From IMG/VR virus record IMGVR_UViG_3300030098_004614, positions 1 through 34,950 of that record: a stretch of DNA of 34,950 bases. The stretch is one strand, 5' to 3'. The notes under the pieces are model-generated. The model was not told the DNA's origin, made no database searches, and saw nothing but the letters and a program-made list of their open reading frames with translations. Shown here one piece after another: positions 1,111-32,044 of the stretch. The first letter of the stretch is position 1; each line of letters begins with the position of its first letter. The DNA comes from a virus. The translations under genes and the position numbers were made by a program.

Positions 1111-4100
1111 TTATTGTTGTTGAATGAGTTGCATTACTTCCGAAAAGTCAGCGCCTTGTCGATATTGTTTTCTAGCGCGGGTGACTTGACCATAGTAACT
1201 TTGAAGTTCGGGAAACTCCGAAATGCTTTGTTCCAACGCCTTCGAGCGATACTTCCTCAAGACGCGGTTTATCTCCGTTACTCTCGGACTCGTCAAACCA
1301 GGTTCCGACACCGAAGACATACGTTGGTACTTGCGGGATTTGATCAAACGCTCCAATGCCTGTCGGACGGTACGGCCTCCTATACGGGTCGTTCCTATCA
1401 ATTCCAACCGTCTGTCGTGGGCGGTCTGTCCTTTTTGGTTTTGGTAACCCAACAGGTCGATCAATCCGTTGTGGGTGGAAGAAGGTTGTTGAAAGGCGTA
1501 GTTCAAGGAAGCCAACTCGGTCAGCACGGGATCGTTCTTGACCGCCGAGTGCGCTATCGGGTTGATGGCGGAGAAGAAAGGTACTCCCTCTATTATGGTG
1601 GACTCCCCAAGTAAATTCCTTTTTGGGTCGAGGGAACCGCGTAGTCCTGGGGTTTTATAGGAAACAGCGTCCATGATGGAACGTACTTCACGCGCTGCTT
1701 GATCGCCTGTGCCAAACTGACTTTGAGTAAGAAAACCGCTATAAGGAACCATTGCGGCGGTGAAGTTACGAAGCAATCTCTCTCGTTTGCCTGGTTCGGC
1801 GCTGAAGGCGTCGGCTAACATTTGAACACCCGCAAGATACGACTTGTTCGTTACGTTCCGATAGAAAGTCAGTTGTAAACCGGCGGCAACTTCTTCGAGT
1901 TTGCCTGTGGTGACGTCGTCGGGAGCGTTGGCCACGTGATCCACTAAATCAACGGTAACGCCCAACATGGTTCCCAAAGGGTCCACTCGTTGATAACTCA
2001 ACCATTGATCGCCTATTTTTATGCTGTAAGGCTTCCAACCCGTGGCTTCCAAAACCTTCTTTTGTTTGGGGTCGGCGGGACCGCCGCCCGTAATGTTTTC
2101 TTTATTGTCGGTAGCTAACTCAAGCATCGTGCCTGCCATTACAGCGCTTGTGGTGAGTTTTCCCACCGCCTTGGACTTTCTTAGACTGTCGCCTGAGTTA
2201 ATGTCTTCCAAAATTTGAGAGCGCGTGTCTTTTAAAACCAAGGCGCGGCCGAAATCCAACGCAGTTCCGCCGGTGCGCTCAAAAGCGTACTTCAAGATGT
2301 TCGTGGGAGTCCTGATGAAAGGCATGATGAAACTAAGACCTGGTACAGTTTGAACAAACTTTTGAAGCGCTTGACCGTATTTCCCTAAATCGTTGGTGAA
2401 CGTCTTGTACTTTGCTTCGTCCAACGCTTCTTGGGCGTAAACTTCCAAACCGGAAGCTTCCTCGTTCCAGTTCTCTTCCTTGTATTTGGCGACGAACTCT
2501 TCTTTTTCCAAACCTTCGAGACCTTCGTCCTTCGCTTTTTGCATGGCGTCCCGAAGAATGGATTCCTCGGACAAATGCCTTCCGCTTTCGGTGACCACGG
2601 AGTCAAGACGTTCCTCGACGAATCTAGCGATGTCGTAAGCGTCCTTCATTCCGTGGGTTTCGATGGCTTCGACCGCAGCCCTCAAGCGGACACCTTTGCG
2701 GTAATTAAGTTGTTTGAAGAATTCATCCGTACTCATCAACAACCGAGTCGGTAATCTAAAGAAAGTACCGAGACCGTCTATGGTGGCGCTGCGCTTCGAT
2801 CCCTCTTCTCCCGCCAAAGCGCCTATACCTCTCATTCTGCGAACGTTTTCCGCGTTTATGGCGTCCCGCATCGTAGCGTCTTCGGTGAAGGCGCGAGCGT
2901 CCGAATCAAGAAAGTTTTCGTTTCGTTTGAGAGCGCGTACACCAAGACCAAACGCTTCCTTTACGCTTTGCCACTCGAACAGGTTAGCCAAAGCGTGTTT
3001 AGCCACCGTCATGTTCCCCGTCAAAACGCCACCAACCGTGGTTTCGAAAGCGCCCGTTATGGTGGTTATGCTGTTACCTATGGCATTCACCACCTGTGTG
3101 CGTGGACCGCTCAAAATGGAGTTGATCCAGTATTCCTTGATCATCGCCAACATCTTGTTGCCTTGAACCCCCTTAGCTAACTTGAACACTCGTCCGGCGG
3201 AAGCCGCGAAGTCTTCGGGGTCAACCGCTTCGTTCAACGCCTTCATCAACTTGTCGACGTTCATCTCGCCGCCTTGGCGAAGATACTGGTTGCGAAGTCC
3301 TTCGTTCTTCATTTCCTCCGCGCCTATGCCTATCTTCTTGGGTTCCAAGTCCACGCGGCGTCCCGAATAAGGAGCGCGTCGTCCACCGAGACCCAAAGCT
3401 TGTTCACGTCCGAGAGCGGAGTAATAAGCTTCGAACTCGATCATTTCCTGCAAAGTGTTCTTTAGTTCCGCCAACGCCACGTCGGGATTAGCTTCCCCCT
3501 CCTTGGCCTTCTTCAAGGCTTCGTTCTGCTTCCACGCCTTGTGCGAGAGACTTTGTCCGATATCTTTCAGTACTTGAGCGGCAAGCCGTACTTCACGCGC
3601 TTTATCGACCGTCGTGCCGACGTTCTTCCAACTATTCGCCACTTCGGGAGAAAGGGTGGACATTACGTCGTGCGCCTCTTGGTTCTGTTCAGCCAAGGAC
3701 TTCGGACCAGGATCGGGGTAGTTTTTCTCCACTTGCTGCCGCGCCCAACTAACCAAACCCTGTATTTTGCTGGTGCTGTCGAGTTGACCTAGGTTCAGAA
3801 TGCGTCCTCTGGGTGGTTCGGGTCCGTCGTAAGCGCGGGGATCCACGATACCTTCCATGTCAGGCGCGTCCCCTGACTCGCGGATGGAATAAAGCTTTCG
3901 CTTCGCTATATCGTCCGCTTTAATCTTTCCTCTTCCCTCTGAAACAATGTCCATCCCGCTTTTCAAGGTCTTTTCAAGCAGCGTTCCATCAACGTCTTTT
4001 CCTAAGATTTTAGAGACGAGTTGAACAAAGGTGTCCCACAGCGTCTTTCTCTTTCCCTTTAACTTGATTTCCGCAAGAGCGTTCTGAAAGCTTCTGTCAC

Positions 4101-6243
4101 TCATGGCGTGTGCCACGAACTCGTCAATGTCTGTTAAAGCATATTCCCAGTCGGGACTCTCCCCCAAAACACGCCGTGCGTCACCGAAGGCGGAATAAAG
4201 TTCTTTGTATGGTCCCTTCGTATTCGCCAAACTCCGACCAGTCAGATTCTTTTTGATCTTCAACGCCGTGGCAGCGTGTATCATTTCGTGAAGTAATGTT
4301 TCTTCGTTATCACCGCCTTTGACCAATGTTATCGAGTCTTTTACTTCGTCATAAAAACCTCGGATGCCTCTAAAATTCTTCGATTTTATGTTCTCCTTAA
4401 CGGAGACCATGCGGTCACCGACGTCGCGCATTGCCTTGTTTAACTGTGATGCCATTTTGCGGATTAATTCGGAAGAACCGTTTTCCGCCAAAGAGTCGAG
4501 TGTCTTCCCTACCGTCGAACCTGTTTCAATTAAACCTTTGGTATGCGTGTCCAGAGGCGTTAGTTCCGCGTCGCTACGTCCTTTAATGGAGGCCATCTCA
4601 TCCCTGAAAGTGGCGTTCGTAAGCTTGGTAGCCGCTGACTTCAAACCAGGAGACAAGTCCTCGAAGTTTCTATAGATTTCAGGATTGGTGAGAAATTCAT
4701 TAACGGCTTGAGCGGGATGATCGAAACCCAACCAATCGTCTTTTGCCAACGCTCTGAGAAAGTTACGCATGGGCGGCTTGAATTCACCGAGAGCAGCCAT
4801 GACGTCTTCATGGTCAGCTTCTTCGTCCAACACGCGGAACCATTCATCTATGACGTCCTTTCTGACTCTACCTGAATCCATGAGGTCAGGCGCTTCAGGA
4901 CGAATCGAAGCCAGTACCCTGCCGTCGTCGCCTAAAATCTCCCCTTTTAAAGCGGGGGTTTCTTGAAGGATGGATTTAAATTGACGCGAAGACGGGTCAA
5001 TCATCCACTCCCCGCTAATGGTTTTATAAACATCATCCAGCTTAGAAACAGTATCTTTTTGAAGTAGTTTATTTACCACGTCATCCACTATTCCCTTAAT
5101 TTCATTAAGACGTTTTTTTGCCAAGCCAGGGTTAGGGTTGTTCGGGCCGAGTAATGCGTCTGCATCTAAAGACTCTTCTCGGGCAAGGCGACGGAACAAA
5201 GACTCTCCAAGTTCCGCTTTGAACTTATCGTCAATGGTCTTCGGCTTGCCTTGTTGACCTATACGGAATTCATTAAGACGACCAACTGGCTTCCCGTTTG
5301 GTTTCCCTAAATATAATTTTTCCGTTATTTCCTCTGCTATCCATTTTGGTTCTACGCTTAACTGCCTCCCTCTTTTCCACGAGGTTACTTTGTACCCTTG
5401 CGACAAATCGGCAATCGTCTCGTCAAACAAGGCAAGCGCGTCTTCGTCCATCTGTTGCATCTGTTTAAGCTGTGGATGACCCACTGGATAACCTAAGTCG
5501 GTTTCAACTTCACCATCATAAGCTTTTCGTAAGCTACTCTGTAGGTTGGAGTTAGACCCGACATCGAAAACGTCTAGTAATTCCGGTCCTCTAGCACCAT
5601 GTACCGACGCCATGTCGCCTAAAATCTCCCGTATGGCGGCGTAGGTGGCGTCGGGGTCGTTGGTGTCCGCCTTTGCCTTGTGTCCCGCTCTCATCGCTTT
5701 GATGGAAGTGAACAACATACCAAACACCGCTTCCATACCCAATCCTTCGAGGACGTTCTTCAAACGCCCTTCGAGTTCTCCTTCGTCCGCGTCGTGGGCG
5801 AGGTACTCGGTGATCGGGTTCTGAAGTTCAGGGACGCTTCGTATCAAATTGGAAAGACGTTCCTCCTGTCCGTTGAACACGGAGAAGTCCGTCAAACCAC
5901 CGGCTATGACTCCTTTGCGGATATTACCACCCGCCAACGCTTTTTGAGTGAGGGATCCGCCCTTTGCCGCCATCCCCGCTTTACCCAACGCTCCGAAGAT
6001 GGGACCGAATCCCGCTCCGAACTGAAACACGCCTTCGACTAAACCACCCGCCATAGTCTTAGACCTGCCAAGAAAACGGGTGTCCCAATCGGGAAGTGAG
6101 TCAAAGGTGACGAAGTCCGCTAAATTGTAGACGCCTTGAACTGCTCCCTCTACGCCACGAAAAGGCGCGGCAAGCATGTCGGTAAACCAGTTATCGTCTT
6201 CTTCCTGCTGCGGAAGCTGATTCGGTAATTGTTGATTAGGCAT
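1111..6243 (-). CDS. Large internal virion protein (gp16 position) with HExxH motif
   Basis: This 1710-residue protein lies directly before the tail fibre gene, where T7 has gp16, the ejected core protein that crosses the cell envelope. Its length is larger than T7 gp16 (about 1318 aa). No lytic transglycosylase signature is apparent at the N-terminus. Around residues 650-656 there is TLLHEMIHAATALK, an HExxH zinc-metallopeptidase motif. The N-terminal ~100 residues are Gly/Ala-rich and could include a membrane-interacting stretch (AGMAAKGG region). The C-terminal part has long helical segments and a hydrophobic region (VVNAIGNSITTITGAFETTVGG, about residues 1048-1070). Role in ejection is inferred from position and size; peptidase activity is inferred from the motif only. 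The start ATG is 5 bp after the preceding gene's stop. Confidence 0.85.
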   Translation of the reverse strand: MPNQQLPNQLPQQEEDDNWFTDMLAAPFRGVEGAVQGVYNLADFVTFDSLPDWDTRFLGRSKTMAGGLVEGVFQFGAGFGPIFGALGKAGMAAKGGSLTQKALAGGNIRKGVIAGGLTDFSVFNGQEERLSNLIRSVPELQNPITEYLAHDADEGELEGRLKNVLEGLGMEAVFGMLFTSIKAMRAGHKAKADTNDPDATYAAIREILGDMASVHGARGPELLDVFDVGSNSNLQSSLRKAYDGEVETDLGYPVGHPQLKQMQQMDEDALALFDETIADLSQGYKVTSWKRGRQLSVEPKWIAEEITEKLYLGKPNGKPVGRLNEFRIGQQGKPKTIDDKFKAELGESLFRRLAREESLDADALLGPNNPNPGLAKKRLNEIKGIVDDVVNKLLQKDTVSKLDDVYKTISGEWMIDPSSRQFKSILQETPALKGEILGDDGRVLASIRPEAPDLMDSGRVRKDVIDEWFRVLDEEADHEDVMAALGEFKPPMRNFLRALAKDDWLGFDHPAQAVNEFLTNPEIYRNFEDLSPGLKSAATKLTNATFRDEMASIKGRSDAELTPLDTHTKGLIETGSTVGKTLDSLAENGSSELIRKMASQLNKAMRDVGDRMVSVKENIKSKNFRGIRGFYDEVKDSITLVKGGDNEETLLHEMIHAATALKIKKNLTGRSLANTKGPYKELYSAFGDARRVLGESPDWEYALTDIDEFVAHAMSDRSFQNALAEIKLKGKRKTLWDTFVQLVSKILGKDVDGTLLEKTLKSGMDIVSEGRGKIKADDIAKRKLYSIRESGDAPDMEGIVDPRAYDGPEPPRGRILNLGQLDSTSKIQGLVSWARQQVEKNYPDPGPKSLAEQNQEAHDVMSTLSPEVANSWKNVGTTVDKAREVRLAAQVLKDIGQSLSHKAWKQNEALKKAKEGEANPDVALAELKNTLQEMIEFEAYYSALGREQALGLGGRRAPYSGRRVDLEPKKIGIGAEEMKNEGLRNQYLRQGGEMNVDKLMKALNEAVDPEDFAASAGRVFKLAKGVQGNKMLAMIKEYWINSILSGPRTQVVNAIGNSITTITGAFETTVGGVLTGNMTVAKHALANLFEWQSVKEAFGLGVRALKRNENFLDSDARAFTEDATMRDAINAENVRRMRGIGALAGEEGSKRSATIDGLGTFFRLPTRLLMSTDEFFKQLNYRKGVRLRAAVEAIETHGMKDAYDIARFVEERLDSVVTESGRHLSEESILRDAMQKAKDEGLEGLEKEEFVAKYKEENWNEEASGLEVYAQEALDEAKYKTFTNDLGKYGQALQKFVQTVPGLSFIMPFIRTPTNILKYAFERTGGTALDFGRALVLKDTRSQILEDINSGDSLRKSKAVGKLTTSAVMAGTMLELATDNKENITGGGPADPKQKKVLEATGWKPYSIKIGDQWLSYQRVDPLGTMLGVTVDLVDHVANAPDDVTTGKLEEVAAGLQLTFYRNVTNKSYLAGVQMLADAFSAEPGKRERLLRNFTAAMVPYSGFLTQSQFGTGDQAAREVRSIMDAVSYKTPGLRGSLDPKRNLLGESTIIEGVPFFSAINPIAHSAVKNDPVLTELASLNYAFQQPSSTHNGLIDLLGYQNQKGQTAHDRRLELIGTTRIGGRTVRQALERLIKSRKYQRMSSVSEPGLTSPRVTEINRVLRKYRSKALEQSISEFPELQSYYGQVTRARKQYRQGADFSEVMQLIQQQ

Positions 6244-20540: not shown

Positions 20541-20688
20541 TTTCCTCCTTTGGTTTTTGTTGTTCTCGTTGCGCCGCTTCTCTCCAATCCCAAGGAACGG
20601 TAACATCCTCGGTGTCGTACATCCTCGCAAGCTCCAAACACGTTAGTTCCTCGACGTTTGTTTTGTCCTTCAATGAGTCTCCGCCCAT
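20497..20688 (-). CDS. Hypothetical small charged protein
   Basis: A 63-residue ORF from the ATG at 20688, overlapping the end of the polymerase gene by 19 bp and the start of the nuclease gene by 44 bp. Sequence: MGGDSLKDKTNVEELTCLELARMYDTEDVTVPWDWREAA, then a Gln/Lys/Glu-rich tail. The VTVPWDWREAAQ part looks protein-like and the tight overlaps suggest translational coupling. No family recognised. Confidence 0.55.
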   Translation of the reverse strand: MGGDSLKDKTNVEELTCLELARMYDTEDVTVPWDWREAAQREQQKPKEESERKQGSEEKRSDV

Positions 20689-22541
20689 GACGACCCCACT
20701 TTGTACTCACCGTCCAAAGGACACTTCATCCCCAAGTATTCGCCGGCTTGATAGATTGAATCCACGGCTAACTTTCCGTATATCTCCACGCCTTCCCACT
20801 GCACTTCCGCTTGGAACTCGTCGTGGACGTTGGCGACGAACGCCCATTCCTTGCCGTGTTTCCATCCTATGCGTAGCAAACACTGGGTGGTAAGCACCAA
20901 AGCGTTTTTCATGGCCACCGCTCCCGCTGACTGAAGCAACGTGTTGAGGGCGGCGTGTTCGGAACGAATGGGAAGCAAACGTCCATCCAATCCTATGAGA
21001 TGTCCGGCGGCTTTTGCTTTGGTCTCCACCGCAGACTTCAAGCGAGCGAGAGCGGGTATCTGATCAAGGAACCTTTTCTTCAGGGCGGCTCCGTCCTTGG
21101 CGGATCCTCCGACGATGTCACCTATCTTCGCGTCTCCTGCTCCATACAGGAAAGCGTAGATAAAAGTCTTTGCTTGGTCTCTTGTTTCAAGACCCGCAGC
21201 TTCTTGGTTTATAGTGTGAACGTCTCCGTCCACTATGAAATCACCGTATTCGCCACCGTCCCATAGGGCGAGGTAGTGAGCGAGGCATCGTAGTTCAAGT
21301 CCACTTGCATCCACTCCCACTAGTTCGTAGTCGTCTTGAGGAACAAACAACGCTCTACACCTCTCTCCGTAGGGAGCGCGGGTAGCGGGTACTTGCGCCA
21401 AGTTGGGACCGCTGTGAGTACACCGACCAGTGACCGCTCCGTTGGTGTTTACCTTGCCGTGTATGCGTCCGTCCTTGGCTACCTTTATCCACGCTTCCTT
21501 GCCTTCCGCCAATTGACCGAGGCGTTTGGATACCATGAGATACTCGCAAAGCACCTTCGCTTCGGGGAACTTCATGGACTTCAACACTGCTTCGTCTATC
21601 TTCGGACGACCGTCGGGAGTGAACTGTTCGGGTAGCCACTCGTACTTCTCGAACAATCGCTTGGCTATCTGATCTCTACTACCTGGATTAAAGGGTATGT
21701 ACTTCTTCTTGTTACCCGTCTTGACGGCGTCGTTGGCTAGAGATTGTTTTAATCCCGCTTCCTTCAACACTGCCTTCAGCTTGGCTTTGGTCTCTCCCTC
21801 AAACGTTTGGCCGTTATATTCGACCGACCAACCCGAAGGCGTCTTCATCTCCTCCACCACAGGAGGAAACAACTCCTGTAGTTCGTCCCTTATCTCCGCT
21901 CTTCTGAGCGTAAGGTCTTCGGCTAAATCAAGAGCGGCTTCCTCGTCGAAACCAAACCCTCTGATTTCCTGTTGTCTGATTACGCGAGCGAAGCTGTGTT
22001 CGATCTTTATCATCTCTTGCGAAGGCTTCTTTTCCGCTAGATGAGAGAACAACTTGTGGGTGACGAGAACGTCACGCTCGCAATAGTTCTTCATGGCGTC
22101 ACAGTATTCCTCGAACGCTTCTTCTTCTTCTTCCCCGAAGGATCCCTTGGCGAAGTTCATGCGTTCACCCCAAGCTTTCAAGGAGTGGCTTCCCCATAAC
22201 TCACGCGGCATCTTCTTGTTCTGCATATCGAGAGCGCGTATGTCGGGAAAGACACAACGAGACAGTAGCAAGGTATCCATTACCTTCCCCTTCGGTCTCC
22301 AACCAAACACCTTGGTCAACGCGGGTACGTCGAAACCTATTATGTTGTGACCTATGATTATCCCTGCCTTGTCAAGCATGTGGAGTCCCTCGGTAATACC
22401 GTCGCCTGAAAAGGTGATGACCCGACCCAAGGTGGGATTGTAAATACTGATGCAGTGAATCTTGTCCAGTCCGTTCAAGTTAGTGAAGTTCTCTACTGGA
22501 TTGGTCTCCACGTCGAAAAACAAAACGTCTTTATTCCTCAT
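20670..22541 (-). CDS. DNA polymerase, family A (gp5-like)
   Basis: A 623-residue replicative polymerase with proofreading domain. Exo motifs: FFD10VE12TNP, IIGHNIIGFDVPAL and YCERDV. Polymerase motifs: A at VGVDASGLELRCLAHYL, B at DQAKTFIYAFLYGAG and C at NVHDEFQ (about residue 572). The TGRCTHSGPNLAQVPA segment is the family's template/DNA-binding block. T7 gp5 is 704 aa; this one is shorter and may lack the large thioredoxin-binding insert, although the region around residues 280-310 was not examined in detail. Works with the primase-helicase and SSB encoded just upstream. Confidence 0.97.
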   Translation of the reverse strand: MRNKDVLFFDVETNPVENFTNLNGLDKIHCISIYNPTLGRVITFSGDGITEGLHMLDKAGIIIGHNIIGFDVPALTKVFGWRPKGKVMDTLLLSRCVFPDIRALDMQNKKMPRELWGSHSLKAWGERMNFAKGSFGEEEEEAFEEYCDAMKNYCERDVLVTHKLFSHLAEKKPSQEMIKIEHSFARVIRQQEIRGFGFDEEAALDLAEDLTLRRAEIRDELQELFPPVVEEMKTPSGWSVEYNGQTFEGETKAKLKAVLKEAGLKQSLANDAVKTGNKKKYIPFNPGSRDQIAKRLFEKYEWLPEQFTPDGRPKIDEAVLKSMKFPEAKVLCEYLMVSKRLGQLAEGKEAWIKVAKDGRIHGKVNTNGAVTGRCTHSGPNLAQVPATRAPYGERCRALFVPQDDYELVGVDASGLELRCLAHYLALWDGGEYGDFIVDGDVHTINQEAAGLETRDQAKTFIYAFLYGAGDAKIGDIVGGSAKDGAALKKRFLDQIPALARLKSAVETKAKAAGHLIGLDGRLLPIRSEHAALNTLLQSAGAVAMKNALVLTTQCLLRIGWKHGKEWAFVANVHDEFQAEVQWEGVEIYGKLAVDSIYQAGEYLGMKCPLDGEYKVGSSWAETH

Positions 22542-23171: not shown

Positions 23172-23597
23172 CTAGTTGAATAAGTGTTTCGAAACCTTTT
23201 GCCAGTACTTGACTGTTTCCTGTTTCTTGTAACCATGAGGACCGCCGTTATGGATGCGCGCCAAGTGTTCCCAAGTAGCGTCCTTGGAAGCGTACTTCTT
23301 CCAGTACGACAGTATGACTTTTTCGGCGTAGCTAGGGATAACGCACATCGACCAAGTTCCTTCCCTCAGTTGAAGGGTTTCCCTCGCCGCGTCCAACCAG
23401 TAGTCGTAAGTGATTTGGTAAGGACCAATCGAACGTCCGTTGTCTCCCACGGCATAATTGGGATGTCTTGTGCCTCCTGTCTCCACCTTTTTCATGGCGT
23501 CTAATAAATCACGATACCTCCTGACGTCAAAAAGGCGGCGGGTCGTTATCGTTGGCAGTGTTAATATCATTCGGAAAAACAGTGCTATCTTTTTCAT
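23172..23597 (-). CDS. Endolysin, invertebrate-type (destabilase/i-type) lysozyme
   Basis: A 141-residue protein from the ATG at 23597, which is preceded by GGGAGGTTAC; the start overlaps the primase-helicase gene by 71 bp. The N-terminal ~20 residues (MKKIALFFRMILTLPTITT) look like a signal or signal-anchor. The domain has LLDAMKKVE39TGG, VGD52NGRSIGPYQITYDYWLDA, and LARIHNGGPHGYKKQETVKYWQKV, the signature of i-type lysozymes (DxGxSxGPxQI...YW.D and R.HNGGP.G). Glu39 and Asp52 match the catalytic pair. The cysteines that stabilise animal i-type lysozymes are absent. It would cleave peptidoglycan at lysis. It takes a place close to that of the T7 gp3.5 amidase, but is a different enzyme. Confidence 0.85.
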   Translation of the reverse strand: MKKIALFFRMILTLPTITTRRLFDVRRYRDLLDAMKKVETGGTRHPNYAVGDNGRSIGPYQITYDYWLDAARETLQLREGTWSMCVIPSYAEKVILSYWKKYASKDATWEHLARIHNGGPHGYKKQETVKYWQKVSKHLFN

Positions 23598-25131
23598 GTA
23601 ACCTCCCTGTCTTGTTATCAAAATATAAAGTCCCCGCCAGTCCGGTCTCTCCGCTGAATCTATTCTTCAGTACCCGAAGGCGCGTTTGGTTGGCGTCTTC
23701 CACCGCTTGTTGGTTGCGTTCCATGCCAAGCACGATGTCCGATAACTGAGCGATGGCTGCTGAACCACGAAGATGAGCGAGCGAAGTGACCGCTCCCTCT
23801 TCGTGACCCGCTCCATGTGGACGCTTCAAATGAGACACCAAGATCATTCCGCAGTTAGTCTCCTCGACCAAGGAGCGTAGTCGGGTCATGGTGTTGTCGA
23901 TGAGGCGTCGTTCGTCATCACCCTCGAACCCACTGACCACGATGCTTAGATGGTCTAGGAAGATCCAGTCACATCCCATTCCCTTGCATAGATACCTGAC
24001 CTTCGCCAACAGGTTGTCGGAATCACAGCTTCCCCAATGGTCGTAGGTGTAGAAGTTACCGTTGCCTATCGTCTCCTTGAAAGGTTCCTCCAACTTGTCG
24101 TAATCAATCTTTTGTTCGAGGTGCAGAGGACGACTGAGGTGGATGCCTAAAATACCTAGAGCGGTGCGTCTGACACTTTCTTCCAACGCTATGTATCCGA
24201 CGGTCTCCCCGCTCTTCAACAGATTGTAACAAACCTCACGACACAACAGGCTCTTGCCAATACCGCTACCCGCGCAGATGGTTACCAGTTCTCCTCGCCT
24301 GAGACCGTGGGTCTTCTCGTTCAAGTCATTGTAAGGATAAGGCTTGGAGTCCTCGTTCTTCTCCTCGGTGATCTTCTCCCATAGTTCATCCGCAGTAACG
24401 ATACCGTCAGGTCTGTAGGAACGAGCGTTCCAAACGGCCTGCACCAGTTCCCTCGAACGGTTCGCAGTCAACATGTCATTGGGATCCTTCAAAGGAATCT
24501 CAGCTATCTTCGCTCTTCCTGGCGCTAACATCGCCGCGCATTCCGCAGCCGCGTTTCTTCCGGCGTCGTCCATGTCGAACATGAACACCACTTCATCGTA
24601 TCGCTCCAACCAATCGAGGGAGTGGGCGACGTACTTCTTTCCACTCGCCGCTCCGTGGGGAACCGATACCACAGGCCACTTGTTCTCGAACGCTTGGGAG
24701 ACGGACAAAGCATCTACCTCACCTTCGGTCACCACCACCCGTCTGCCTCCGTCCTTCCATATATGTTGTCCGTAAAGACCGACCAATTCCCCTCTGACCT
24801 TGAAGCTTTTGTCGGGGAACCGTAGCTTCTGTCCCACTAAGTTACCGTTTTGAGCGCGGTAGTTGGCTATCTGTACCGAGGTGTCGTCACATCTTCCGAC
24901 GTGATAACCCCACTTTTGGCAAGTCTCCCGCGTGAGACCCCTCCTAGCCAATGCCTGAACCCTACCTTGCACGAAACTTCCGTTCACTTGGCGGGTTTGT
25001 TTTTGCTGTCCGTGTTGTCCTCCAATGAAAGAGCCGCAAGAAAAGCACTTTGAGCTTCCGTCTTGGTTAATGGATCGAGCGTCACTCGACCCGCACTTGG
25101 GACACGGTAAGTGTGTTGATTGGAAAGCCAT
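23527..25131 (-). CDS. DNA primase-helicase (gp4-like)
   Basis: A 534-residue bifunctional replicase subunit. N-terminal zinc-binding domain (CPKC at 10-13, CFSC at 29-32), primase core with Toprim motifs VVVTEGEVDALS (residues 132-143) and VVFMFDMDDAGRNAA (181-195), and RecA-like helicase with Walker A GSGIGKS (288-294), Walker B DWIFLDHLSIVVSG and the sensor GMILVSHLKRP. T7 gp4 is 566 aa. The C-terminal end is acidic with a terminal Phe (NDNDPPPF), like the T7 tail that binds the polymerase. The gene overlaps endonuclease I at its start (148 bp) and the lysozyme at its end. Confidence 0.97.
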   Translation of the reverse strand: MAFQSTHLPCPKCGSSDARSINQDGSSKCFSCGSFIGGQHGQQKQTRQVNGSFVQGRVQALARRGLTRETCQKWGYHVGRCDDTSVQIANYRAQNGNLVGQKLRFPDKSFKVRGELVGLYGQHIWKDGGRRVVVTEGEVDALSVSQAFENKWPVVSVPHGAASGKKYVAHSLDWLERYDEVVFMFDMDDAGRNAAAECAAMLAPGRAKIAEIPLKDPNDMLTANRSRELVQAVWNARSYRPDGIVTADELWEKITEEKNEDSKPYPYNDLNEKTHGLRRGELVTICAGSGIGKSLLCREVCYNLLKSGETVGYIALEESVRRTALGILGIHLSRPLHLEQKIDYDKLEEPFKETIGNGNFYTYDHWGSCDSDNLLAKVRYLCKGMGCDWIFLDHLSIVVSGFEGDDERRLIDNTMTRLRSLVEETNCGMILVSHLKRPHGAGHEEGAVTSLAHLRGSAAIAQLSDIVLGMERNQQAVEDANQTRLRVLKNRFSGETGLAGTLYFDNKTGRLHEKDSTVFPNDINTANDNDPPPF

Positions 25132-26163: not shown

Positions 26164-28581
26164 TTAAGCGAAGAAGTAATCGGAATCCAAGACCGACTCG
26201 GCTTTAAGCGAACCGTATTCAGGGAGTTCCGGTAACTCCTCCTTCGTAGTTTGATCGACCTCTTCCTTGAATTTAAGGAGAAGGTCTTCGTCGAAAATCT
26301 TTGTGTAAGCGTGTCTCAATACAGCGGCCAACTCATCGCATTTGGGGGAGTGCGTACCGTAAGAGTCGTGTATCATCGCAAGGGAATGAACTCCGTAATT
26401 GGTGGCTAGGTTCACCGTCTCATGCAATGCGGAGGCATCGAGGGAGTGTACGAAGTTAGGAGACACGCCGTTGCATTGACGTCTCTTGTCCAAGGATGGT
26501 TCGTCGGACTTCCAAAAAACATGGCTTTGACGCTCGCCTAAAAGGGTCCATATGCTTTGTTGTTTTTGTTGGTTGTACTTTTGTTTGACGGGGAAACCTA
26601 AAGGTGTTGTCCACTTCAGCGAGACGTCTTCTTCCGTCGCCACCCTCGCCACGTCTTGCAACCACTTCATAACCTGCTGCGGACGGGTAAGAACCTCGTT
26701 CATCGAGTTCCATATCAGACGTGAAAGGTAACCCGTCACCTTATAGACCTCTTCCCCGACGAAAGGATCCTTCGCTCCTTTCAACAAACGTCCTTGATAC
26801 CACTCGTCCACGTACGCCCTGCAACTGTATTGAGTTCCTCCGTAAGGCATCACCATCACAGGTCTTTTGGTGGCTTTCCTGTCCACTCCGAAGTCCAACC
26901 ATCCCTTCGCCAAGTGGTCGCCCTTCTTCACGCTTGTCTTCAGCTTTTGATTTACTCGTTCGGCAACGAATGAATACAGGTCGGCGGGAAGGTCGCCGTT
27001 GGAAGACACGTTGGTTGCCAGTCCTCCTACCTCGTCTCTAGATAACAACGACAATATCTGTATGCCGTTGTTGGATGCGTCCATGCTGACGGGAAGGCGC
27101 GTCTTGAAACCCCTTCCACCTACCGCCAACATGTCGCCCCACTCGAAACAAAACGCCAGGAACTGCCACGGTTTGTCGGCTTCCTCCCACCAATCGTTTG
27201 TCTTGGGGTCGGTGTAAACAGCGTGTATCTCCGCACGTTTGTCCGACACCCACTTCACTCGATCATCGAAGGACGCCTTGTCGTAGCCGAAACAGTTAGC
27301 GCCGTGAATTGCCAACCACCTCGCATCTGTTTTCGGTTCCCATATCGTCTCGCTGTTGGCGAACAACAACAGAGAACGAGCGAGATCAGTTCCTTGTGGC
27401 GTTAAATAGTAAGGGACTGGATAGACTCGTCCCCGAAAGTCGCATTGGTGTGGGTAGTAAAAATTTTTGCCACTAAATTTCTTGGCTAAGTGAAGAGTCT
27501 TCAGGGTCTGTAACCGCTGTGATTTCAGACTTAGGTTCAATTCGTAGATGCGTCCGGCTTTTCTTGACCATTCCTTCTTTACGTCGGGGTCGGTGTCCGC
27601 TTCCTTCGGCCAAGGAGGACGCTCGTAATCAGAGCGTCGAGGCATATCGCCTATCTCCCTGTCCGTTTCCCACGCCCACTGCATGATCTTCAGTACCTTG
27701 TCGTTGACCGTCCAAGGTGTCTTTTGTATGTGGTTGACTGCATCCACGACGGGTTGCATCGCATCGAAGTCCACTTCACGGAGGTGGTCCATGTCATAGG
27801 ACTTGATGAACGTTAAAGTAGGAAGAGCCGATGCGTCGTCGGCGTAACCCCCCGACCAAACCGACGTCCAGTCTTTCGGCTCTTCCAAAAGTGGTAACCA
27901 AAGAGGAGAAAGCATTTCCTTCTCCTCGTTGAAGGCGCGTATCCACTCGAACAACTCGTCGGTGGCGGATACGAAACGCTGTGTCTTGTTCTTTTGTGTT
28001 AAAACGTTAATGAAAGCGATGAAGTGCGTGGTCTTCCTTATGGTTTCCAAAACAAAAGAACCTAATCCAACCTTGTCCCTCTTCGACCACGTCTTGAACT
28101 TCTCGATGTTCCCTTTCTTGGCTTCGCCTATCTCATGTCGAAGGAAAGCGTTCCTCTTTCTGTTGTAGCTACGCTTCCCCGCTTTCTTCACGTCCTTGTC
28201 GGCGTAAAGAAATATCTTCGGGTGGTTTTTCTTCAACCACCTATACCTGACCTCGTCCTCCAACACGTTGGCCACCGAAAGAGAACTCTTCACCATAGTT
28301 TTCTTCAAAGATATACTGTCCATCGTCACCTTCAGCGAAAGAAAAGCGATGACTTGTGGTTCTAAATCCCAAATCAGAGGTAACCAAACAGGAACTGCGT
28401 GAGGATTCTTGCGGTGATAAAGAATCGTCTTGCGAAGGTCGTTGATTAGGTCGGGTAAGGCAGCGCGCATCAAACGCTGTCCGTACTGAGTGTCGGTTTC
28501 ACTTCCTCTTGTACGAGCGGACTCGACCTTGGCGCGGTATCGAGCGATACCGGACTCAATCATTTCCTTTTCAATGTCCAT
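26164..28581 (-). CDS. Single-subunit DNA-dependent RNA polymerase (gp1-like)
   Basis: An 805-residue T7-type RNA polymerase (T7 gp1 is 883 aa). Catalytic motifs: SMDASNNGIQILSLLSRD (first Asp, near residue 501), DRKATKRPVMVMPYGG (Lys near 571 and Tyr near 579) and MIHDSYGTHS (Asp near 738). It ends DSDYFFA, like the FAFA end of T7. The open frame extends to a GTG at 28602, but the ATG at 28581 is preferred, since the upstream bases form the leader element CGACACCTCC shared with early genes. It would transcribe the middle and late genes of this phage; the region directly upstream contains a tRNA and an inverted repeat. Confidence 0.96.
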   Translation of the reverse strand: MDIEKEMIESGIARYRAKVESARTRGSETDTQYGQRLMRAALPDLINDLRKTILYHRKNPHAVPVWLPLIWDLEPQVIAFLSLKVTMDSISLKKTMVKSSLSVANVLEDEVRYRWLKKNHPKIFLYADKDVKKAGKRSYNRKRNAFLRHEIGEAKKGNIEKFKTWSKRDKVGLGSFVLETIRKTTHFIAFINVLTQKNKTQRFVSATDELFEWIRAFNEEKEMLSPLWLPLLEEPKDWTSVWSGGYADDASALPTLTFIKSYDMDHLREVDFDAMQPVVDAVNHIQKTPWTVNDKVLKIMQWAWETDREIGDMPRRSDYERPPWPKEADTDPDVKKEWSRKAGRIYELNLSLKSQRLQTLKTLHLAKKFSGKNFYYPHQCDFRGRVYPVPYYLTPQGTDLARSLLLFANSETIWEPKTDARWLAIHGANCFGYDKASFDDRVKWVSDKRAEIHAVYTDPKTNDWWEEADKPWQFLAFCFEWGDMLAVGGRGFKTRLPVSMDASNNGIQILSLLSRDEVGGLATNVSSNGDLPADLYSFVAERVNQKLKTSVKKGDHLAKGWLDFGVDRKATKRPVMVMPYGGTQYSCRAYVDEWYQGRLLKGAKDPFVGEEVYKVTGYLSRLIWNSMNEVLTRPQQVMKWLQDVARVATEEDVSLKWTTPLGFPVKQKYNQQKQQSIWTLLGERQSHVFWKSDEPSLDKRRQCNGVSPNFVHSLDASALHETVNLATNYGVHSLAMIHDSYGTHSPKCDELAAVLRHAYTKIFDEDLLLKFKEEVDQTTKEELPELPEYGSLKAESVLDSDYFFA

Positions 28582-28597
28582 TGGAGGTGTCGTTTTT

Positions 28598-28621
28598 GTC
28601 ACGGTTTTGACACACCGTGAC
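28598..28621 (-). repeat. Inverted repeat upstream of RNA polymerase gene
   Basis: GTCACGG at 28598-28604 and CCGTGAC at 28615-28621 form a perfect 7-bp inverted repeat with a 10-base spacer, 17 bp upstream of the preferred RNA polymerase start. No T-run follows on the minus strand. It could be an operator, or an mRNA hairpin that affects expression of the RNA polymerase. Purely structural evidence. Confidence 0.45.
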
Positions 28622-28839: not shown

Positions 28840-29889
28840 TTATATTGCCACTTTCGTCACGGGTTTGTCACGTGATTCCTCACCTTGGAGAGCGTCCCGC
28901 GCCTGTTCCAAGTTCTTAGGAGCGAGGTGAGCGTAGCGAAGGGTGGTCTGTATGCTTGAGTGACCCAGGAATTCCTTCACCACACGCAAGTCTATTCCTC
29001 TTTGTATTAATCTAGACGCGCACGTGTGACGGAGGCAGTGAGGAACGAACTGGTCGTCTCCCCCTAACCCGATCAACTCCTTCATGGTGTCCCAAGCATG
29101 ACGGAACTGGTCCTTTCGAAAGATCCAAACACGTAAGTTTTGGGGATCCGTTCCCATCTGTCTCGTGATGGAGTCCATCGCTCGACGGGTCAACGGAATG
29201 GTACGCGCTTGTCCGTTCTTGGTTTCCCACAACCGGACAACTTCTTGTTCGAAGTCCACGTCGCGCCACTCAAGTTTGTGCAGTTCACCGAACCTCATCC
29301 CCGTGTCGATCAACACCTCGATGAAGTCGGCCATCATCGAGCGTTCGATCTCTCGCATCTTGGCAAGCAGTCGGAACTCCTCTTCCGTGGTGACCCATCT
29401 AATCCTGCCTTGAGACTCCTTCTTCCTGTCGATGATAGGCATACGGTCTATGTATCCTCGACGGTAGCAGTGCCTCAGTATCTTGGACAACGCCGCAAGC
29501 TTTCGGTTTATCGTGCCGTTGCTTTTACCGTCCCGCTCCAGTTCCGAAACCAAAGCGTCGATGACGTTTTCGTTGACGTCACGTACGGCTACGCTTGCGC
29601 CGATGCGTTGATAACAATCCTTGGCGTTCCACCAGGAGGTCATCTCCGACTTCGTTCCCTTCCAATGCTTGTCCAAGGTTTCTTCAGCCGCTTGTCTCAA
29701 GTTGATCACAAGTCGGTTCACCTTGGACGCCACCTCTTGGGACACTTCAAGCCCTCGACTGTCCCTGTCGCTGACCACTTGCAGCCAATCGTTAGCCGCT
29801 TCCCAAGTCTTGAAGCTCGGACGCAGTCGCTTGCCGTTGTTCAAGGTGATGTCAGCTTGGAACTTCTTTCCATTCACTCGGATGTTCAT
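28840..29889 (-). CDS. int: Tyrosine-type site-specific integrase
   Basis: A 349-residue integrase. An N-terminal arm-binding-like part (MNIRVNGKKFQADITLNNGKRLRPSFKTWEAANDWL), a core-binding SAM-like domain (about residues 60-150) and the catalytic domain with R199 (DTGMRFGEL), K224 (ETKNGQARTIPL), H284-x-x-R287 (HCLRHTCAS), H310 (EFLGHSS) and nucleophile Y319 (TTLRYAHL). All active-site residues are present. It ends TAATGA, 5 bp before tRNA-Leu. It should catalyse integration at a host tRNA-Leu gene. GGAAACGACAA precedes the ATG. The gene overlaps the upstream winged-helix gene by 38 bp, which points to joint expression. Confidence 0.95.
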   Translation of the reverse strand: MNIRVNGKKFQADITLNNGKRLRPSFKTWEAANDWLQVVSDRDSRGLEVSQEVASKVNRLVINLRQAAEETLDKHWKGTKSEMTSWWNAKDCYQRIGASVAVRDVNENVIDALVSELERDGKSNGTINRKLAALSKILRHCYRRGYIDRMPIIDRKKESQGRIRWVTTEEEFRLLAKMREIERSMMADFIEVLIDTGMRFGELHKLEWRDVDFEQEVVRLWETKNGQARTIPLTRRAMDSITRQMGTDPQNLRVWIFRKDQFRHAWDTMKELIGLGGDDQFVPHCLRHTCASRLIQRGIDLRVVKEFLGHSSIQTTLRYAHLAPKNLEQARDALQGEESRDKPVTKVAI

Positions 29890-30330: not shown

Positions 30331-30534
30331 TCACCCCGAATCTTTTGGGGTATTTTTGTAGGAATCGGAGAAGCGTTCCTTGAAGCGAAACGTTGGTTGA
30401 CCTCCCCTCTTTCTCCAAAAGCGTTCGTAACCGGCGTCCACCATGCGTTTAAGTTCCGTCCACTCGCCGTGAGTGAAACCCGTTACAGCTTCAGTCATTT
30501 GATATTCTTTAGGTATTACTGGTTTATTACTCAT
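30331..30534 (-). CDS. Hypothetical 67-aa protein
   Basis: A short protein (MSNKPVIPKEYQMTEAVTGFTHGEWTELKRMVDAGYERFWRKRGGQPTFRFKERFSDSYKNTPKDSG). It overlaps the methyltransferase end by 8 bp and lies before the winged-helix gene. It has a helical centre (WTELKRMVDAGYERFWRKR) rich in aromatic and basic residues. No family recognised. The DNA at its 3' end forms a small inverted repeat. Confidence 0.65.
   Translation of the reverse strand: MSNKPVIPKEYQMTEAVTGFTHGEWTELKRMVDAGYERFWRKRGGQPTFRFKERFSDSYKNTPKDSG
30333..30357 (+). terminator. Possible rho-independent terminator (plus strand)
   Basis: ACCCC at 30333-30337 pairs with GGGGT at 30347-30351 across a 9-base loop and is followed by A and TTTTT. 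Read on the plus strand this is terminator-like, but no plus-strand gene is known in this region, and on the minus strand there is no T-run. It may limit antisense transcription, or be chance. Confidence 0.3.
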
Positions 30535-32044
30535 TTGTTGGTTCTCCTTGATTCAAGCGGTTATAGAGTGTGGTGAAGGCGAGGACACAGGTATCGACGC
30601 AGACTCCGTTTCCAAGTAGGCGGAGTCTGTCCACTCGATTGGTAATTGGGTCCACCCCACGTAATCCGCCCCAAGCATCAGTTGTTCCACCCAATTCGGA
30701 TTCAGTTTCGGGGAGGTCTGCTTGCACGTACGATTCAGATCCCTTCCGAGGCACTTCTGATTCGACGTCGGCGCCGTCCGCGCTCCCTCCACGTGATCGC
30801 TCGCTTGAGGCGTCGCCCACGACTTCTCCTGCTGCAACATCAACTGGTCGCTTAACGGAACTTGTTTGTTCACTCCCTTCTCCTTGTGTTTTTGAATCGC
30901 TTTCTTCAGACTTTCGGGACTGCCGTAACTCCCCTTGTAGTCCTTCTGTTGAGGCGTCGCCCAGTTGTCCGACTTCTTCGCTTCCGCTACCACTTGAGAG
31001 TCCAACGCTGATGGAATGTTTTCCCCGTTCGGTCCCTTCCTGTCTCCCCTGCATTGAGTCGAACTTTGGTTCCCCGCTCTCGGAGTCTTCCAGTTCTTCT
31101 TCGCTTCCTCCGCCAGTATCTTTCCGCCTGTCCCTTCCTTTCGACTTCCTGGGTTTCCCGCTCTTGGTGTCGGCCAATTCTCCGTCTTCCTCTCCGTCTG
31201 CGCAGGTAAGTCCGACGTCTCCCCCTTGTACGCTCTTCCCTCCGCTCCCTTCCAATCCCTTGCTTGAGGCGTCGCACACGACTCTCGGTTCTTCCCACCA
31301 ATGTTGTCGTTCGTTGGGTCGGGCGGGATAGAGTGCTTGTGTACCACTCTCCCCAAGAGACAGTTGTCGGGTACGTTCTTGCAAGCTTCCGCGCTGCCGT
31401 CCTTCCAATCCCTCGCCGTTGCAGTCGGCCAACTTTGCGAGGATGAAGACTCGTTTGCGGAGGTGAGGTATTCTTCTTCCGTCGCCACCGATAACTTCAG
31501 CCGCGCTGAATGTTCCCCACGAACACGTATAACCTCTTTCTTCCAAGTCTCCGAGGACATGCTTGAGTACCGATTCTCCGTCGGCTGTTTTACTACTGAT
31601 GATTCCCTCGACGTTTTCGAGGAGGACGTAAGCGGGTCGGCAAACGCTAATTCCATCTGCGATGTATGGGTAGATGTGTCTTGGGTCTTCGGTTGCTTGT
31701 CGTTTGCCGGCGCTACTGAAAGGTTGGCAAGGAAATCCTGCGGACATGATGCCAACCCGTCCACGTAAGTCTTCAAATGGAAATCGCTTGACGTCCGTGA
31801 AAACAGGACACGAATCCAGTTGACCCGCTTCCATCTTCGCAACCAAGTTTGCGATTGCGAAGCTTTCGATCTCCACGTGAGCGAGTGTTCGCAACGCTCC
31901 GCCATAGATTCTTTGCAAAGCGATTCCGATTCCGTCGTAGCCACTGCACAAGCTAAGGTACGTGGCAGGAACACCAACGGCGCTTGGTTGTCGTTCGCAG
32001 GTGCTGTCTGTTGTTGTTTCTTTTTCTTTGTTTTCATGGTTCAT
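30527..32044 (-). CDS. DNA (cytosine-5-)-methyltransferase
   Basis: A 505-residue C5-MTase. Motif I is YLSLCSGYDGIGIAL (residues 29-43), motif IV GFPCQPFSSAGKR with catalytic Cys106, motif VI LENVEG (142-147), motif VIII RKRVFILA (196-203) and a late motif X DPITNRVDRLRLLGNGV near the C-terminus. Between residues 205 and about 465 the expected target-recognition region is replaced by a very hydrophilic, Gly/Ser/Glu-rich segment with repeated LADxxxxGLxG or GDASxxGLxG units, which looks disordered. Almost the whole gene is also open in the +1 frame. It probably protects phage DNA from restriction or alters host expression. The 13 bp before the ATG show no Shine-Dalgarno. Confidence 0.93.
   Translation of the reverse strand: MNHENKEKETTTDSTCERQPSAVGVPATYLSLCSGYDGIGIALQRIYGGALRTLAHVEIESFAIANLVAKMEAGQLDSCPVFTDVKRFPFEDLRGRVGIMSAGFPCQPFSSAGKRQATEDPRHIYPYIADGISVCRPAYVLLENVEGIISSKTADGESVLKHVLGDLEERGYTCSWGTFSAAEVIGGDGRRIPHLRKRVFILAKLADCNGEGLEGRQRGSLQERTRQLSLGESGTQALYPARPNERQHWWEEPRVVCDASSKGLEGSGGKSVQGGDVGLTCADGEEDGELADTKSGKPRKSKGRDRRKDTGGGSEEELEDSESGEPKFDSMQGRQEGTERGKHSISVGLSSGSGSEEVGQLGDASTEGLQGELRQSRKSEESDSKTQGEGSEQTSSVKRPVDVAAGEVVGDASSERSRGGSADGADVESEVPRKGSESYVQADLPETESELGGTTDAWGGLRGVDPITNRVDRLRLLGNGVCVDTCVLAFTTLYNRLNQGEPTNE
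30553..32037 (-). CDS. Possible second protein in overlapping frame of the methyltransferase gene
   Basis: A 494-codon ORF on the same strand, starting at an ATG 7 bp after the methyltransferase ATG (ATGAACC-ATG) and ending 26 bp before its stop. The middle and end look protein-like: six spaced W-x-T-P or similar units (SWPTATARDWKDG, CATPQARDWKG, NWPTPRAGN, NWKTPRAGN, NWATPQQKDYKG, SWATPQASDHVEG) and the ending LNPNWVEQLM....GWTQLPIEWTDS. To my recollection, W-x-TP repeats and an NPxWVExLM...WTD motif occur in other phage proteins linked to C5-MTases. The N-terminal 150 residues look less convincing. Low stop-codon density in other frames of this segment argues for caution, so expression is unproven. 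Confidence 0.4.
   Translation of the reverse strand: MKTKKKKQQQTAPANDNQAPLVFLPRTLACAVATTESESLCKESMAERCEHSLTWRSKASQSQTWLRRWKRVNWIRVLFSRTSSDFHLKTYVDGLASCPQDFLANLSVAPANDKQPKTQDTSTHTSQMELAFADPLTSSSKTSRESSVVKQPTENRYSSMSSETWKKEVIRVRGEHSARLKLSVATEEEYLTSANESSSSQSWPTATARDWKDGSAEACKNVPDNCLLGRVVHKHSIPPDPTNDNIGGKNRESCATPQARDWKGAEGRAYKGETSDLPAQTERKTENWPTPRAGNPGSRKEGTGGKILAEEAKKNWKTPRAGNQSSTQCRGDRKGPNGENIPSALDSQVVAEAKKSDNWATPQQKDYKGSYGSPESLKKAIQKHKEKGVNKQVPLSDQLMLQQEKSWATPQASDHVEGARTAPTSNQKCLGRDLNRTCKQTSPKLNPNWVEQLMLGADYVGWTQLPIEWTDSAYLETESASIPVSSPSPHSITA
30805..31440 (-). repeat. Degenerate DNA modules in the methyltransferase variable region
   Basis: A 15-bp sequence, TTGAGGCGTCGCCCA on the plus strand, occurs at 30805-30819 and exactly at 30949-30963, with a one-mismatch copy at 31264-31278. 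Related copies (GGTGTCGGCCA, GGAGTCTTCCA, GCAGTCGGCCA types) lie near 31090, 31170 and 31425. Each encodes GDAS/LADT in the methyltransferase frame and WATPQ/WPTP in the alternative frame. Spacing is irregular, about 75-160 bp. Confidence 0.6.

Follow-up and report, generated by a model that had tools for sequence, protein, structure and literature searches.

Why one strand of a phage genome should stay open in two reading frames along nearly the whole of a DNA methyltransferase gene, and whether the second frame encodes a protein of its own or a part of the same enzyme, is the question raised by a locus in the virus record IMGVR_UViG_3300030098_004614 (34,950 bases, analysed at full length and referred to here as the window). 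To our knowledge, long same-strand overlaps are rare, and the two proteins encoded by one are usually unrelated. In this locus the overlap most likely builds one enzyme from both frames, in a layout that recurs in viruses and several bacterial phyla. The locus very probably encodes a C5-methyltransferase of two polypeptides in overlapping frames, with catalysis on the first (alpha) and target recognition together with motif IX on the second (beta), a reading for which there are no expression, binding or methylation data.

Two open frames on one strand

The alpha frame (30527–32044, minus strand; 505 aa) was assigned as a C5-methyltransferase catalytic subunit with motifs I–VIII and X and without IX, based on matches to PF00145 and phrog_363. 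The beta frame (30553–32037, minus strand; 494 aa) lies in +1, covers 98% of the length of alpha, and is predicted to be a target-recognition/motif IX subunit based on a match to phrog_1008, conservation of the +1 frame, and frame-specific constraint. Across the alpha span there are no stops in frame +1 and 17 in frame +2. The beta frame stayed open in none of 20,000 synonymous-codon shuffles of alpha (mean, 8.3 +1 stops; minimum, 1), while applying the codon usage of the phage to alpha produced a mean of 15.6 +1 stops (minimum, 6; 5,000 runs), and the +1 frame of nine other long phage genes is open for no more than 40–95 codons at a stretch. The initial annotation, made from the sequence alone, had reported the same ORF coordinates, a 494-codon open +1 frame and an ATG 7 nt after the first, all of which are exact, and its judgement that such a run is unlikely by chance is borne out by the shuffles. 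It had also suspected a contribution from composition, and the plus strand at the locus does possess a long frame (253 aa); composition adds to some of the long frames but cannot explain the +1 frame. A further ORF of 67 aa (30331–30534, minus strand) begins within the last alpha codons (overlap 30527–30534), and a family search with it returned no match.

Division of the conserved motifs

The PF00145 match of alpha (E = 3e-26) is confined to residues 29–210, and the phrog_363 match (E = 6e-41) spans residues 27–496. Motifs I, IV (PCQ), VI (ENV), VIII, and X occur in C5-methyltransferase order and, as had been proposed, in a single frame, an assignment supported by PF00145, by an alignment of motifs I–VIII (A1), and by LLGNGV in motif X. 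All motif coordinates are on the minus strand. Invariant positions in A1 include C8, G10, Y11, and G13 of motif I (SLCSGYDGIG, 31925–31954), G78, P80, C81, and P83–S85 of motif IV with the catalytic Cys (GFPCQPFS, 31715–31738), E118, N119, and V120 of motif VI (31610–31618), and H169 and R171–F175 of motif VIII (HLRKRVFI, 31442–31465). Motif X (RLRLLGNGVCVDTC, 30587–30628), recognised from its sequence, overlaps the beta C-terminal tail; RLRLLGNGVVP is kept in frame 0 of homologues, even beyond frame-0 stops. Between these blocks, across the module array of the other frame, alpha is a Gly/Ser/Glu-rich linker. Motif IX was sought in frame 0 and found neither in the window alpha nor in any of 79 viral relatives; it was found in +1.

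The beta translation matches phrog_1008 (labelled DNA methyltransferase; E = 1e-20) and has no Pfam match and no PDB sequence match; the family searches on the two frames return PF00145 and phrog_363 for alpha and phrog_1008 for beta. Three regions of beta stand out, all on the minus strand. A helix at residues 162–192 (the SETWKKEVIRVRGEHSARLK region, 31462–31554), overlapping the alpha motif VIII zone, is conserved in alignments A2 and A3, including S161, W165, R179, and K181, and is modelled with a pLDDT of 84–96 at residues 161–190. An array of six W/C-x-T-P cassettes, supported by beta-frame constraint and by cassette families and their exchange, occupies residues 203–444 (30706–31431). 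A motif-IX-like block (LNPNWVEQLMLGADYVGWT, 30649–30705) is conserved in a 76-sequence alignment, with both frames constrained. The modules and the LNPNWVEQLM ending had both been noticed in the initial annotation and are present; the conserved ending LNPxWVEQLMGxPxGWT resembles motif IX of C5-methyltransferases. The invariance of PNWVEQLM in A2 partly reflects the search pattern, and the alpha-selected loci described below therefore weigh more. AlphaFold models of beta alone, for the window (76-row alignment; pLDDT 54, pTM 0.30) and for the one-module beta of L085 (37 rows; pLDDT 61, pTM 0.28), are of low confidence, and a small-domain fold is not seen in either.

Recurrence of the overlap and its variants

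Searching IMG/VR with beta identified 80 loci in which a beta-frame ORF overlies the alpha ORF in +1; phage C75C1 has the same layout. Because a beta query selects for beta, the search was repeated with alpha only, using A1. Among the loci selected in this way, a +1 beta match was present in 79 of 79 viral and 73 of 80 bacterial loci (152/159; median overlap about 1 kb), the latter from Verrucomicrobia, Rhodobacterales, Phycisphaerae, Bacteroidota, Bacillota, Actinomycetota, and others. The alpha-selected set included six canonical single-chain methyltransferases, which served as negatives and had no +1 beta match. Motif IX of the alpha-selected loci was located in +1 in 104 cases and in frame 0 in three, and was never found in both frames of one locus.

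The boundary of the division varies. In five loci (L118, L119, L131, L160, L219) the beta frame carries IX followed by X (RLKLLGNGVVPQ), and in three from Streptomyces and Actinomadura (L214, L217, L232) IX and X are both in the alpha frame. The LPTP modules of the latter three remain in the overlapping +1 frame, there without motif IX, and these loci may represent an intermediate stage in how the split evolved. The IX–X profile of the split relatives aligns with that of canonical enzymes (L228, L238, L243, L244, L247, L250) with an hhalign probability of 71% (E = 3.9e-5). In seven loci (L021, L023, L027, L030–L033) alpha ends after motif VIII and motif X persists further on in frame 0. In L021, L023, L027, L030, and L031 the alpha frame contains many stops past motif VIII, and motif X sits in a separate small frame-0 ORF. 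In L030 (2995–3324) and L031 (frame-0 ORF 3909–4238) this ORF is equipped with an AGGAG and ATG of its own, which implies an apparent three-piece methyltransferase in these two, as far as their sequences indicate. Recoding of the frame-0 stops was considered for L021, L023, L027, L030, and L031 and rejected, as all three stop codons are used. Separately, a segment 5′ of motif IX is conserved in both frames of L013, L018, L040, and others (alpha, WPARPGExQYEWEEPRVV; beta, GxQDQxKSNTSGKNxxS); a pattern search located it in 97 of 143 loci.

Twin start codons

In the window the two frames begin at ATGaaccATG (32035–32044, minus strand), with the alpha ATG at 32044–32042 and the beta ATG at 32037–32035, 7 nt apart. 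Alpha has a start within 10 nt of a beta ATG in 116 of 126 loci, compared to 0 of 126 for a third-frame control. The most common spacing is ATGTG (n = 80; beta ATG with the alpha GTG 2 nt on), followed by 4 nt (n = 15), 7 nt (n = 9), 10 nt (n = 7), and −5 (n = 5). When 75 ATGTG loci were mapped individually, 55 had an upstream Shine-Dalgarno-like sequence and in 50 alpha lacked any other start upstream; there is no obvious Shine-Dalgarno at the window pair. A single ribosome-binding region probably feeds both frames. In a minority (L052, L065, L120, L164, and Paenibacillus phages) beta starts within alpha.

Frame-specific selection

Substitutions were counted per frame in an OLGenie-style analysis without multiple-hit correction, using 65 locus pairs with each locus used once, though the pairs are not fully independent. 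Selection passes from alpha over motifs I–VIII to beta over the modules, and then to both frames at IX/X. Over motifs I–VIII, omega was 0.25–0.46 for alpha and 0.52–0.97 for beta, while in the module zone it was 0.92–0.99 for alpha and 0.26–0.40 for beta. The final 90 nt before IX were intermediate (alpha, 0.75; beta, 0.55), and in the IX zone both frames were constrained (alpha, 0.30; beta, 0.22). Single-coded flanking genes, as a control, gave 0.25 in the true frame and 0.98 in the +1 frame. Within the alpha-dominated zone, differences silent in alpha and changing beta were depleted relative to those silent in both (about 0.3 vs. 0.5–0.9; control, 0.38 vs. 0.36), so that the N-terminal part of beta is weakly constrained as well. 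Comparison of the window with L009–L012 showed that beta-silent changes in the module zone exceed alpha-silent changes (0.11–0.32 vs. 0.03–0.06).

Several proposals of the initial annotation can be judged against these results. Alpha residues of about 205–465, which it had described as Gly/Ser/Glu-rich and disordered-looking, do resemble filler, in agreement with the near-neutral rates (dNN/dSN about 0.9–1.0). Its suggestion that the locus is overprinted and yields two proteins draws support from the conservation across phyla, from selection specific to each frame, and from the twin starts. Frequent stops in the second frame of homologous loci, or constraint confined to the methyltransferase frame, would have refuted that suggestion; in homologues +1 stops are rare and constraint extends beyond the methyltransferase frame.

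Exchange of cassettes

Across loci, beta possesses 1–8 W-x-T-P modules (six in the window) with lengths of 28–50 aa, and 204 modules were grouped, after splitting, into 21 families. Cassettes shared between loci with alphas <50% identical (n = 239) had a mean identity of 83% in the beta frame, compared to 47% in both the alpha frame and the third frame, where the alphas of the cassette-sharing loci were about 42% identical. The majority (182 of 239) were at different ordinal positions. Some were 93–100% identical where the alphas align at 32–43%, and some were 100% identical at an alpha identity of 38–43%. A cassette family was seldom repeated within one locus when length and coverage filters were applied (2 observed vs. 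8.9 expected, P = 0.006); the unfiltered version of the test, in which some modules were merged, gave P = 0.96 in the opposite direction. The cassettes thus behave as interchangeable target-recognition or specificity units would, but such a role is inferred without specificity data. They are gained, lost, and swapped between phages, such that one enzyme probably methylates several sites, with a specificity for each cassette being inferred.

Alternative explanations

The least credible explanation, to which almost no weight can be given, is that the +1 frame is open through composition or repeat expansion and is untranslated. Other long frames do occur at the locus and the module-zone DNA is repetitive, but none of the codon shuffles stay open, the +1 frame is open in phages of quite different composition, and module-zone constraint is stronger in the beta frame than in alpha. 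Further, the identity of the cassettes in the alpha frame equals that in the third frame and they are conserved in beta only, so repeat expansion, which the initial annotation had offered as its alternative, fails; an untranslated frame is refuted at the level of sequence evolution. A single chain made by programmed frameshifting, in which ribosomes translate I–VIII in frame 0, the modules and IX in +1, and X in frame 0 again, would restore the canonical motif order and could accommodate the frame-0 stops between VIII and X in L021, L023, L027, and L030–L033. It remains very unlikely, although no systematic search for slippery sites was performed, as each chain would need two shifts, the beta start beside that of alpha in 116 of 126 loci would be needless, and motif X of L030 and L031 has its own AGGAG and ATG. 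Somewhat less remote, though still improbable, is that beta is a genuine overprinted protein with a separate job, for example in regulation or in inhibiting host restriction, and has the methyltransferase gene merely as its carrier. It is common for an overprinted gene to have no relation to the gene that contains it, and beta has no Pfam family and no predicted fold on its own. Against a separate job, beta holds the motif IX that alpha is without, IX shifts frame among relatives and is never in both, the split relatives have IX and X in the same frame, in segments that align to those of canonical enzymes, and beta is paired with alpha in nearly all alpha-fetched loci. Beta is most likely the missing part of the same enzyme, supplying target recognition and motif IX, rather than an unrelated protein.

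A different doubt concerns the modules, which could be spacers, or repeated structural elements within one recognition domain, in an enzyme of single specificity. This possibility is real, if not the one favoured: there are no data on DNA recognition by any module, and the modules are short (28–50 aa) and predicted to be disordered in the model of beta alone. Near-intact exchange of cassettes between distant enzymes speaks against it, as do the 1–8 modules per beta that are seldom repeated within a locus.

Proposed mechanism and known systems

Both frames are conserved and under selection, IX and X are divided between them, the starts are twinned, and cassettes are exchanged. It is inferred that both proteins are expressed, form a complex, and methylate DNA, that each cassette confers one specificity, and that the enzyme counters restriction. 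As proposed for the two-polypeptide enzyme, ribosomes would be able to initiate in both frames of a single mRNA at the two starts 7 nt apart. Alpha would fold into the large catalytic domain, with I–VIII and X joined via the near-neutral linker, and beta would provide the small domain, with the row of W-x-T-P cassettes for target recognition plus motif IX, the two assembling into a single active enzyme. Cassette turnover between phages would then probably yield several methylation sites per enzyme, and methylation would most plausibly shield phage DNA against host restriction.

The beta chain of M.EcoHK31I is reportedly encoded within the alpha gene but in another frame, and the second chain likewise lies in an overlapping frame in the window and in 152 of the 159 alpha-selected loci. 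In M.EcoHK31I (YGGCCR; Lee, Kam and Shaw 1995, as described in PMC3404938), alpha has I–VIII and X and beta has IX, the same division as between the large and second chains of the window. The best reading is that the locus is laid out like M.EcoHK31I, though no sequence comparison with that enzyme was made. In the window, unlike in M.EcoHK31I, the overlap covers 98% of alpha, the starts are 7 nt apart, and the 494-aa beta carries six cassettes. The location of target recognition in beta is inferred, whereas in M.EcoHK31I the predicted recognition domain has been placed in alpha and beta has motif IX alone (PMC3404938). M.AquI (CYCGRG) carries its catalytic half and its recognition/IX half on separate chains, split before IX–X (PMC3404938), similar to L118, L119, L131, L219, and the actinophage loci L003 and L004; its beta has IX and X, whereas X remains in the alpha frame of the window. 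The multispecific C5-methyltransferases of Bacillus phages (e.g., M.H2I) have tandem interchangeable recognition domains in one enzyme (PMC8936443). The W-x-T-P modules form tandem arrays, are exchangeable, differ in number between loci, and seldom recur within one; the enzyme would work in this way if the cassettes are specificities, a recognition role that has not been shown. M.H2I-type enzymes are single chains in one frame, whereas in the window the array belongs to beta and catalysis to alpha, two chains with overlapping frames.

Existing annotations hold parts of this arrangement. PHROG 1008 and PHROG 363, matched by beta and alpha, respectively, are annotated as separate methyltransferase families with no frame relation stated. 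In the Paenibacillus larvae phages Redbud (gp51, ‘g50 internal gene’) and Tadhana (54/55), GenBank has an overlapping +1 pair as in the window, but beta begins about 0.2 kb inside alpha, unlike the window, and no function or mechanism is given. L251, L252, and L253 are P. larvae phages for which GenBank annotates the overlapping +1 gene, in one case as ‘g50 internal gene’, without a mechanism. Apart from the two-subunit enzymes, literature searches, which did not cover subscription papers, identified no account of such an arrangement in phages. The principle of two subunits is known; novelty appears to lie in the twin starts, the overlap over the full length, the arrays of cassettes, and the variants in three pieces. 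The balance of evidence tips only modestly towards a widespread class of split methyltransferases with twin starts on one ribosome-binding region, a +1 cassette array, and an alpha that tolerates any linker imposed by the cassettes, in which specificities change by cassette swap and frame 0 passively follows.

Near-full-length gene overlap is a rare kind of overlap that is here recurrent over many phages and bacterial phyla. Selection can be traced while moving between the frames, showing two frames dividing one protein fold, and the locus offers a natural system for twin-start translation. It suggests a source of mix-and-match methylation specificities, and many phage ‘DNA methyltransferase’ annotations cover just half of the enzyme.

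Genomic context

By gene content the virus is a T7-like phage, with a single-subunit RNA polymerase, a T7-type primase-helicase, a family A DNA polymerase, and major capsid, connector, and nozzle proteins. A tyrosine integrase adjoins the methyltransferase gene, and the ORFs at 28840–29889 (minus strand), 26164–28602, 23527–25131, and 20670–22541 comprise this integrase and T7-like replication and transcription genes. As a tyrosine integrase is carried by a T7-like phage, a temperate lifestyle is possible and the phage of the window may be temperate.
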